IMG/VR virus record: IMGVR_UViG_3300039106_000654
Span: 1-50,568 of that record
Reading direction: 5' to 3' (one strand)
DNA: 50,568 bases
From: a virus
In this document: positions 4,101 through 48,928 of the stretch, piece after piece
Position numbering within the stretch: the stretch's first letter is position 1
Layout of the letters: each line of letters opens with the position of its first letter
Program-made: the position numbers and the translations under genes
Notes under the pieces: model-generated
The model's database searches: none
What the model saw: the letters and a program-made list of their open reading frames with translations, nothing else
What the model was told of the DNA's origin: nothing

Positions 4101-7100
4101 TCTAAGATATTAGATAATTTTGGTAATTTATCAGATACATTAGAAGGAAGAGAAAAAAATAATGTAGTTGCATACCATATAGAGAAATCTGTATTCCGTG
4201 TACTTAGAGATCAGTATATTGAGATAGATGATCCAAGTAATATTGAAAAGAGTAATTTATTTAAACTCAATGATGGTAATACAATTTCTTCAAAAAAATT
4301 AGCTAGTGAAGATACTATGATGCTATTAGCTAGTGTATTTAAAGTTACTAGATTAAATGGTCAAATAGTTAATAATAGAGAGGGTCTTTTTGGTCTTCCA
4401 GAATTACAAAATGTTGATATTACATGGAATAAACTTGCTAAAATTTTACAAGGTTCTTTTGATGAAATAGATATGTATACTAGGCTTTTTGAAAATGCAG
4501 AAAATTTTCCTGATCTTCAACAATTACAAACTCAGTTACCAAATCCATTCTTGAATATTAATAGCTTAATGGGACAATATGAACCTATGGAGTTTGCTGC
4601 TGAAACTAATTTTTGGCAAGATTTTAAAAAACCAAGAATACCTACTGTTCAACTTAACTTAAATAAAGAAGAAACTAGATTAGAAGAAGGTGAAGGAATA
4701 GTTAAATCTTTTGAAGCAAGAGTTGCTAAAGCAAGTTTTGATGTTTATCAAGTTATGGAAGATTGGAAATCTAATTTTTATACAGCAGATGCTTCTATAA
4801 ATGAATATATAACAAAAGATCCTAAATATGGTAATAATATTCTAGATACTGCTAAAATTGTAAAAGATTTTGGTGATAAGAATGGTGTATTTATTAATAA
4901 ATTAGGTAATGAATTTTTAAAAACACTAGGAATAATATTAGATGAATCTAGTCCTGCAATTAAAGAAATTATAAATAATAGAACTGATCCTTTTGCTATT
5001 ACATTTGGCATAGATAGAATGTTTGAAGTAATAAAAAAAGTAAATAAAACAACAGGTAGTGATAGTTTTGCATTTAAAAAAAATCCACTTGAGTTTTTAC
5101 TTAAAGGATTACCTGAATCTCTTAGAGAAAGTCAAGAACAAAGTAATGATGTAAGAGGTAGATTAAGAGTATTAGCAGAAATACAAAATGCATTTTCTGA
5201 TAGTTACTCTAATTTTAGTGTTCAAACTCCTGAAGGAAATAGAGTTTGGGAACACATGTTGGATAATACTATTACAAGAATTGTTACTGCAATTAATTAT
5301 GCAGAAAATTGGCAAGAATTAACTACAGATGCAGCTGATCCTAATGGTAGGTTTAAACATATGAGATGGTTAAATGAAACTAACAATACTTTATCACCTT
5401 TTTCAAAAATTTTAAATTCTATATTTGATTTAGATCAAAAATCTCCAACATATGGAGATAAAATAACTGATACTAAAATTATTTTACAAAATGTTGGAGG
5501 TACACAAATGGTAAGTAACAGAAATGAAGGAGGTACTTCTACAGCAGCAATGGATGCTACTAGTAAGTATCTTCAAGAATTTCATACTATGCTATTAAGT
5601 GGAGTAGAAGAGTTTATGAGACATGCTTCTAAGAATACTGCTATGGGAATTACTGTAGATGGTGATATTCTAACTTATAATGGTAAGAAAGCTTCTAAAC
5701 TATATGTAGATATAGAATCTTTTTTAGAATATTCTGATGGAGAACAAAAAGCATATAATATTATTGAAGGATATATTTCTGGAGAAGCCAATAGAATTGT
5801 TAGATTTCAACAAAATTTGGATAAGTTTAAAAATTATGCTGGATATAACAGAAAAGTAAAAAGAAAAGATGGTGATAAAACATCTGTATTAGCAGGGCAA
5901 GCTTTTACTGCATTTGATGATGTACTTACACAACCAGTACAAAAAGAATTATATGCTATTCTTGATATAGTTTCTGAAGATAAGCTTAATGATTTTAATC
6001 TAATGACAGAATTAGATAATAATCCACAATTAAGAGATAAAATTAGAAGAGATGTTGAAGCATATTTTAATCTTGATACTGATGCTAATTTAGATAGACT
6101 TCAAAAAGCTAAGTATATTGATAAAGGTTTAATTGATAGAATAAAAGTTACTAATGATAAACTTACAGAAGAAGATATAGAAAGAGCTTTAGTAAAAGCT
6201 TATACATATAATTCTTTTATTCATAAATATGAGACAGTAATTCTTGCATATGGAGATTTAGCACAATACAATCATGCTAAAGAAGATTTTCATAAGCGTA
6301 ATGCTGGTTTGGCTTCTGGTGGTAGAGGATTTAGAGCAGATAAAAGAGCTCAAATACATCTTAGTTCTCTTAAAAATTATTATGCTGAAAGAAGAGGTTA
6401 TAATGTAAGAAACTATGATGGAACTTTAGTTACAGCTATAATGAAAGAAATGACTTTCAATTCTGTAATGTACAAAGAATACAGAGATGCAATTGAAGAG
6501 GCTGTATTTGAAAGAACTAAAGACAAGAAAAAAGCAAAAGAAATTGCAGATATCTCAGCATCAGAATACTTCAATGAAGATAAACCACAGATGAAAATTG
6601 CTGATGGTCAAGGTCTAATTTCATTTGAATGGTATAGAATACTTAAAAATGCTGAAGGAAATTGGAGTGCTGAACAAGAGTTACTGTATAGAAAAGTTTC
6701 ATTAGGAGAAAATATTACTGCAGAAGATGTGGTAGAGTTCTTTCCACCATATAAATTGCAGTACTTTGGTAATATAGAAGCAACTGGTCTTCCTATAAAT
6801 TCATTTCATAAATTTTCACTTGCACCAATAATTCCAGGAGTATGGAAAGAAGGTACACCAATATTTGATTTACATGAAAAAATGATGGAAGATCAAGTAG
6901 ATTATGTTTTATTTGAGTCTGGATCTAAAGTGTCACATCTTGGTTCTGGAGATCAAATACTTAATCCTGATGGCACATTTAATAAAGATGTTAAGTTTAC
7001 TAAAAATATAATTTTTGCTGATTTCTTAAAGAATCAAACTGAAATAAACTCAAGCTATAAAGATAAATCAATCTTTTCTACACAGATGAGAAAAATGATT

Positions 7101-47596: not shown

Positions 47597-48001
47597 ATTG
47601 TAAATACCACCAGCATGACACTTGTAATCACTATAGTCTGCATATTTTTCTGTCTTAGCTCTACTAGTTTTATAAGCAAATGAATCTATGTACATATCAG
47701 TAATTGTATATATACCATTTTTAGAATTCAAATGTATTTTATCACCTATTGCTAATTTAGGAATGTTGATTGCAGCAGCTCCAACTTCAGATTCTTCATA
47801 AAGAATTTCTGTTTCTTCCCAATAACTTTCTGGATATTCATCAAGGAATTCATCATAATCTGGATGATATTCTTCTTCATAATGTTCTTCATCAGAATAG
47901 TCTATTCTATCAGGATTATAATATTCTTCACATGCATTATATCCATCCGAGTGAATAGCATTATAAGTCTTAGGAAATAGTAATTTAATAAGTTTCTTCA
48001 T
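47585..48001 (-). CDS. Acidic small phage protein with C-terminal beta domain
   Basis: A 138-residue protein. The N-terminal half is packed with Tyr, Glu and Asp (DYSDEEHYEEEYHPDYDEFLDEYPES), the second half is beta-like (KLAIGDKIHLNSKNGIYTITDMYIDSFAYK). No family recognised. The acidic region may mimic DNA, an anti-host strategy in phages, but this is speculation. Confidence 0.7.
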   Translation of the reverse strand: MKKLIKLLFPKTYNAIHSDGYNACEEYYNPDRIDYSDEEHYEEEYHPDYDEFLDEYPESYWEETEILYEESEVGAAAINIPKLAIGDKIHLNSKNGIYTITDMYIDSFAYKTSRAKTEKYADYSDYKCHAGGIYNKGE

Positions 48002-48176
48002 GAGTATATAGTTTAAGTGAATAAATAAATAATACTCTCACAAGGTTGCAACCCTTGGCACTTACTATTTCAAAGTGCTTGTCATATTCTTCTCTAAGTG
48101 GAAGAACTCCTCCTGCTTGGATGAGAGTATAAAAAAGATTTTGTTGACACTTCCTTGTGAGTGTATTCCGATACAA
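47985..48176 (-). CDS. Doubtful ORF (63 codons, no ATG)
   Basis: This frame reads protein-like in its second half (VLPLREEYDKHFEIVSAKG), but it has only a TTG start and overlaps another ORF frame and the next gene by 17 bases. I cannot decide whether it is translated. A 7-bp inverted repeat and a short hairpin fall inside it. Confidence 0.25.
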   Translation of the reverse strand: MYRNTLTRKCQQNLFYTLIQAGGVLPLREEYDKHFEIVSAKGCNLVRVLFIYSLKLYTHEETY

Positions 48177-48285
48177 AATCTATAAAAATCTTAAGCAATC
48201 TATAAGTGGTTTCAAATGTGTACTTCTTCCTTTGCTGGCCAACACATTCTAGATACTTTTGGGTTTGCATTAGTATCCATTGCAA
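48094..48285 (-). CDS. Doubtful ORF (63 codons)
   Basis: Frame open for 63 codons starting with TTG or an ATG a few codons later; C-terminus SHPSRRSSST looks non-structured. It overlaps the micro-ORF 48212-48310 in another frame. Most likely only one of the overlapping frames, or none, is real. Confidence 0.2.
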   Translation of the reverse strand: MQWILMQTQKYLECVGQQRKKYTFETTYRLLKIFIDFVSEYTHKEVSTKSFLYSHPSRRSSST

Positions 48286-48310
48286 TTAGTATGATGATAC
48301 CAAGCCCCAT
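48212..48310 (-). CDS. 32-residue hydrophobic-start peptide (micro-ORF)
   Basis: MGLGIIILIAMDTNANPKV... begins with a hydrophobic stretch like a signal anchor and ends with a charged tail. Its ATG lies inside the structured motif at 48286-48347, which could hide the start. Only the start codon and frame support it. Confidence 0.3.
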   Translation of the reverse strand: MGLGIIILIAMDTNANPKVSRMCWPAKEEVHI

Positions 48311-48347
48311 CAAATAGGCATTTTTGCGGGAATAAGTATTATACTAA
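48286..48347. ncRNA. Structured RNA motif, copy 1 (candidate)
   Basis: TTAGTAT (48286-48292) pairs with ATACTAA (48341-48347), and ATAC (48297-48300) with GTAT (48336-48339). The core between carries CAAGCCC...GGC and CGGGAATAAG. A second copy at 48520-48585 keeps the core and both stems although the outer stem bases differ. Strand is not settled. Confidence 0.5.
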
Positions 48348-48491
48348 CTCTGACTTATAACTATCTTTAAGGAATAGTAAATCATCTAGAGAAAGAGTAT
48401 TAAGATAATCTGCATAAGCAGCCTTATCTAATTTCTTGTTTGATGCTTTATCTGCATCTTTAATAATCTGAGCAATCAATTGAAAAATCAT
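48339..48491 (-). CDS. 50-residue protein between two structured motifs
   Basis: MIFQLIAQIIKDADKASNKK..., helical, with YADYLNTLSLDDLLFLKDSY near the end. It has an ATG start and a TAA stop that lies inside the 3' arm of structured motif copy 1. Motif copy 2 lies just upstream of its ATG. Function unknown. Confidence 0.6.
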   Translation of the reverse strand: MIFQLIAQIIKDADKASNKKLDKAAYADYLNTLSLDDLLFLKDSYKSELV

Positions 48492-48519
48492 ACCTGTAAA
48501 TTTAATGGTATATAATCAT

Positions 48520-48585
48520 AGTAACAGTACCAAGCCCTGTCAATTGGCTATATTATTTAATTCCGGAAGTAAGTATTATGTTACT
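48520..48585. ncRNA. Structured RNA motif, copy 2 (candidate)
   Basis: AGTAACA (48520-48526) pairs with TGTTACT (48579-48585), and GTAC (48527-48530) with GTAT (48573-48576). The core CAAGCCCTGTCAA...GGC and CCGGAAGTAAGTATTAT match copy 1. It sits 28 bases upstream of the 50-residue gene. Confidence 0.5.
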
Positions 48586-48928
48586 CTAACTATATAGAGA
48601 GATAATACTAATATACTTTCTTACTTAATTGTCTAAGTATTCATACTAGCTATATACTATAAGTAATATAGGCTTTTTGAGTATTATTAGCTTACTTATT
48701 CATGAGTAAAAACAGTAAGAGTTTAATAGTTAATAACACTTTCACTCTTTTTCTCACAAATCTTATTTTATAACTACCTGATTACCAGTACCAAAGTCTA
48801 CTTTCTCCACAGGCTGGAGACTAATATATATAATACATATTATATTCTATTTATTTAGTATTGAGTAATTACTTGTGAGTACATAAACTGCACTCTAAGT
48901 GCATTTACTATATACTATAAAATAAAAA
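48586..48928. other. AT-rich region without a recognisable gene
   Basis: About 340 bases of very AT-rich DNA. I see no ORF over 25 codons with an ATG that looks coding. It has several short palindromes such as TGCACT/AGTGCA near 48888-48902, CTCCA/TGGAG near 48810, and repeated TATATACTATA strings. It probably carries promoters or 5' leader sequence. Confidence 0.5.

Follow-up and report, generated by a model that had tools for sequence, protein, structure and literature searches.

A 50-residue gene in a viral genome fragment is flanked by two copies of a repeated motif. What kind of element are these copies, on which strand would they act, and what could they do for the gene between them? 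The window analyzed here is the whole 50,568-base IMG/VR stretch. It contains two giant ORFs of 3314 and 2469 residues, matches to DNA polymerase, helicase and primase, and a DFDID-coding stretch, which together suggest, judging from sequence, a fragment of a crAss-like phage. The genes around the repeats are on the minus strand, and the repeats are described below as read on this gene-sense strand. To our knowledge, the control of small genes in crAss-like phages is largely open, and no description of a structured leader or conserved RNA in these phages was found in the literature searched or in the RNA library.

Two repeats and their first proposed fold

The copies lie at 48286-48347 (copy 1) and 48520-48585 (copy 2), as originally predicted. 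The core that they share, ACCAAGCCCNNTCAA, is exact at 48299 and 48529, and every other place in the window has at least three mismatches to it; the second shared block, RNTAAGTATTAT, is exact only at 48331 and 48568. Copy 2 is located directly upstream of the 50-residue gene, and copy 1 overlaps the stop codon of this gene and also holds the ATG of a micro-ORF. The 50-residue gene is real, since its homologues are present in about ten related contigs; the protein has no match in Pfam or PHROGs. For the 58- and 22-residue ORFs behind copy 1, no homologues were observed among the collected related loci, and a conserved gene immediately past this copy was not found.

Relatives were collected by scanning IMG/VR with sequence patterns and with the 50-residue protein. 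The first strict pattern yielded no match in IMG/VR, and a looser one yielded mostly chance matches, the real ones being L062 and L047 (the latter on the same contig as L033). A BLAST search of cultured phages with the region gave no match. The copy-2 element is present in ten contigs (L033, L034, L062, L122, L156, L250, L255, L259, L267, and L271), in each case upstream of a member of the 50-residue family.

According to the original prediction, each copy is closed by a 7-bp outer stem and a 4-bp inner stem, and outer arms that differ between the copies and still pair are a sign of selection on RNA structure. Both copies of the window indeed have the outer arms, with all of their bases paired. 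As evidence of structure, however, this pairing fails in the homologues. In the set of 11 copy-2 sequences, which includes copy 2 itself and in which the halves were joined and the inserts left out, the covariation score of the fold with both stems is 0.104 observed against a shuffled mean of 0.104, and 86% of its cells are paired, again the same in observed and shuffled alignments. A 7-bp Watson-Crick match arises between flanks of this length and composition in 118 of 2000 shuffles, that is, in about 6% per copy, and therefore the two copies alone are weak evidence. Folding of copy 2 is no better than that of shuffled sequence (z = +0.35), and that of copy 1 is better by a modest margin (z = -2.0). 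Because the inner GCC/GGC match never varies, it is uninformative either way. An alternative 5-bp AGTAT/RTACT stem was rejected, being kept in some homologues only.

A conserved minus-strand hairpin

When applied to the 11 homologues, RNAalifold picks not these stems but a hairpin that on the minus strand occupies 48312-48292 in copy 1 and 48542-48522 in copy 2 (Table 1). The 9-nt loop, GGCUUGRUR, is invariant across copies, and the 6-bp stem around it varies: UGACAG/CUGUUA in copy 2, UGAUGG/UCAUCA in copy 1, which is the most diverged instance of the hairpin, and UGACAG/CUGUCA in L156. In the alignment of 12 copies, window copy 1 included, 98.6% of cells are paired, and the covariation score is 0.278 against 0.180 in shuffled alignments, a value reached in none of 500 shuffles; slid versions of the hairpin, used as controls, score between 0.000 and 0.157. 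Three pairs are changed on both sides, two of them owing to window copy 1 alone. Compensatory changes, by which the first proposed fold could be judged, were seen in the set of copies of the 6-bp hairpin and not in the outer stem across homologues. The two structures are mutually exclusive in copy 2, because the hairpin uses part of the outer arm.

The hairpin set consists of about a dozen related copies, and the calibration of the models is rough. When the window copies were left out of the model, its best match in the window was copy 2 (E 5e-10), and copy 1 came second as a weak match (E 0.048, 18.9 bits); at E up to 1 the window contains no other match. The wobble pairs of the hairpin, read on the minus strand, are four G.U and no A.C. 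All of them being G.U on this strand points to a gene-sense RNA. An invariant GCC is located 3-4 nt upstream of the stem and could pair with the GGC of the loop, so that the modeled hairpin is probably an H-type pseudoknot; because the GCC/GGC pairing never varies, covariation is uninformative here and the pseudoknot is a proposal only.

Searches against Rfam 15 gave no match in the window at the gathering score, chance-level matches only in 48200-48700 and L034 at relaxed thresholds, and tRNAs only in eleven relatives. The earlier suggestion of an unclassified cis-acting structured RNA fits the covarying hairpin, its fixed spacing to the gene (see below) and the lack of an Rfam match, whereas the fold is another one. 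In the collections searched, the hairpin is found in phages only. The 84,980 genomes of bacteria and archaea that were scanned contain two exact matches to its sequence, which were rejected as true copies: they are located in ordinary-looking bacterial sequence without phage context and look like chance.

Table 1. Positions of the hairpin copies and of neighboring features (window coordinates unless a contig is named; stem arms in square brackets)
Feature	Position	Strand	Remarks
Copy 2 core GCC-AAU-[UGACAG]-GGCUUGGUA-[CUGUUA]	48522..48548	-	6-bp stem, 9-nt loop; ends 30 nt before ATG of 50-residue gene
Copy 1 core GCC-UAUU-[UGAUGG]-GGCUUGGUA-[UCAUCA]	48292..48319	-	Loop as in copy 2; stem differs but is paired
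50-residue gene	48339..48491	-	Preceded by copy 2; conserved protein family
End of 50-residue gene and half hairpin TATTCCCGCAA	48324..48341	-	Source of the CGGRANTAAGTATTAT part of copy 1
A5 module CTCTATATAGTTAGAGTAACATAATACTTACTTCCGGAATTAAAT	48555..48600	-	Separable half of copy 2 as first defined; inserted genes follow A5 in relatives
Element B	48033..48129	-	P1 UACUCUCA/UGAGAGUA; P2 CAAGG-GUUGCAA-CCUUG; variable interior
138-residue gene	ATG at 48001	-	Start codon 31 nt past end of element B
Terminator-like stem AGATTTTGT..ACAAAATCT	48131-48181		T-run and inner ACACT/AGTGT hairpin
Element E	48771..48821	-	Highly conserved intergenic block with GACTTTGGTAYTGNNNNTCARRTAGTTA; also in 12 related loci
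Element D	L034:6418-6530; L032:5803-5899, 6189-6311; L250:7303-7441	Mostly that of flanking genes	
Element C	L033:6302-6383; L034 near 6629; L163 near 2700		Long stem ATAGCAATG..CATTGCTAT around GTTCTACC

Spacing, possible gene exchange and neighboring elements

The distance from the end of the hairpin to the start codon of the 50-residue gene was measured in ten sequences and is 27-32 nt in nine of them; for L122, the tenth, the scan picked an ATG that lies in frame farther upstream. The leader sequences past the hairpin differ between two subgroups although the spacing is kept.

Copy 2, as first defined, consists of two blocks, A5 (ending in TTCCGGAATTAAAT) and the hairpin. In some genomes these blocks adjoin or nearly adjoin, and in several relatives they are separated by entire genes or by another element. 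In L034, L250, and L156 a whole gene stands between them, the three genes being unlike one another, and in L255 and L259 there is a non-coding insert; the interval suggests a hotspot for the exchange of small genes. A5 is also found upstream of other genes in L032/L181 and L277. Copy 1 is composite as well: its 5' arm (gene sense) is coding sequence, in which the 50-residue gene ends with Glu-Leu-Val-stop, and next to it comes half a hairpin that stays whole in relatives (TTCCCGCAAG..CTTGTGGG). The motif TTGGTAYTGNTA was considered as a general promoter motif and rejected, as exact occurrences in 15 of 18 records mostly number one or two each, with a maximum of six.

Several other conserved elements are located nearby. 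Element B, with about 50 copies in related loci, has all 247 of 247 cells paired and five pairs changed on both sides. It stands near start codons in 7 of 55 cases, compared with 125 of 911 in the control; since element B is not generally so placed, fixed spacing is claimed for the hairpin alone. Element B has a conserved CCAAGC (48112-48129) to which the hairpin loop sequence GCUUGG (48528-48536) is complementary, and a contact between the loop and element B is possible. Element D is probably a more important find than the hairpin. It forms a three-way junction and a loop-to-tail pseudoknot of a UUCCC loop with a GGGA tail, replaced by UUCAC with GUGA in L162/L163; 98.8% of its cells are paired, and 68 cells in the 27 rows are doubly changed. 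It was not found in the window, and large contigs where it is present have one or two copies. With about 90 distinct copies in total and covariation in its pseudoknot, element D would support defining a new family of the Rfam type; at the gathering score, neither B nor D has a match in Rfam 15 in the loci scanned. For element E, a small hairpin is suggested, but the proposed pairing has no significant covariation. Element C, followed by a T-run in L163, is perhaps a terminator with internal structure.

The hairpin, B and D alternate around the 50-residue gene. Upstream of it, most genomes have the hairpin, and L032 has element D in its place. Downstream, copy 1 is present in the window, B in L033, L034, L255, and L267, and D in L032, L122, and L250. 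This interchange of sequences is suggestive of a shared role. A tentative extension, which we consider possible rather than probable, is that this crAss-like clade has, in a single neighborhood of small genes, a cluster of unreported RNA families (the hairpin, B and D) that are interchangeable and maybe do one job. If true, the shared job could be, e.g., setting the message ends, stability or initiation of neighboring small genes.

Possible function and known systems

The hairpin is a defined and testable site in front of a small gene that is conserved. By analogy with phage T4 gene 32, we propose that it is a leader RNA element controlling translation of the 50-residue gene or stability of its message, and we consider the chances of this proposal to be about even. 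Each copy would be a cis-acting minus-strand RNA with a hairpin of about 27 nt, probably an H-type pseudoknot. As part of the 50-residue gene's leader, copy 2 would be located close to the upstream limit of the ribosome-binding region, where a phage or host protein, or the folded RNA itself, may act to set translation or stability. Copy 1, immediately behind the gene, would be a second copy that has diverged.

Other explanations of the same observations are less probable. The closed element of the original prediction, with the 7-bp outer and 4-bp inner stems kept by compensatory change, could point to arms present in both window copies, to seven of seven pairs kept in the aligned register in 5 of 11 homologues, and to elements B and D of the same cluster, which do have closing stems around variable interiors. 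Yet its covariation equals the shuffled mean, only four or five of the seven pairs are present in L267, L259, and L156, whole genes separate the arms in three contigs, and the gene-side arm of copy 1 belongs to a coding region; we regard this fold as very unlikely. A similarly low probability is given to a self-cleaving ribozyme or an RNase processing site between cistrons. The location between cistrons and the conserved unpaired nucleotides of the loop agree with such a site, but no Rfam ribozyme matches, and one 6-bp hairpin of 27 nt is a small structure for either role.

Two further readings are somewhat better placed, though still improbable. Hairpin promoters are known in phage N4 and serve as a precedent for a DNA-level site about 30 bp before the gene, either a protein-bound inverted repeat or a hairpin promoter of a phage RNA polymerase; such a site would also agree with the constant spacing ahead of the start codon and with an inverted repeat whose center is conserved. 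Against this, the window contains two copies and no genome-wide set, the wobble pairs are confined to the gene-sense strand, and it is the stem that drifts and the 9-nt loop that is conserved. A5 and the hairpin could instead be recombination boundaries at which small genes are exchanged, with conservation reflecting homology arms rather than an RNA function. We consider this improbable to the same degree: it would account for the different genes in the A5-hairpin interval of L034, L250, and L156, for the non-coding insert in L255 and L259, and for the swapping of the hairpin, B and D around the 50-residue gene, but it predicts neither compensatory stem changes nor a fixed spacing to the ATG.

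The proposed leader RNA can be compared with several known elements. H-type pseudoknots in 5' leaders are the topology of preQ1-I and other small riboswitches. The hairpin would share with preQ1-I-type riboswitches the small H-type topology (predicted here) and the position in a 5' leader; it differs in having no sequence resemblance to them and no Rfam match, nor is a small-molecule ligand indicated for it. Element D, like the hairpin, is an intergenic structured gene-sense RNA, and in L032 it precedes the 50-residue gene. It combines a three-way junction with a pseudoknot, conserves about 65 nt and is present in about 90 copies, whereas the hairpin is a single one from about ten contigs.

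The system that the hairpin may resemble most closely in its mode of action is the translational operator of T4 gene 32, and no membership in this type is claimed. The gene downstream of the T4 operator encodes a single-strand binding protein, whereas the gene here encodes a 50-residue protein without domain or phage-family matches. Single-strand binding proteins are much larger than 50 residues, and the product of the downstream gene here is not one of them. The T4 operator consists of a pseudoknot of about 28 nt followed by a less structured leader (PMC535899). The sequences of the two elements differ, and the common features would be a small pseudoknot (putative here), a leader and the start codon of a phage gene downstream. 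A further likeness is that in T4 a homing-endonuclease gene overlaps the gene 32 operator (PMC535899), just as genes adjoin the element here.
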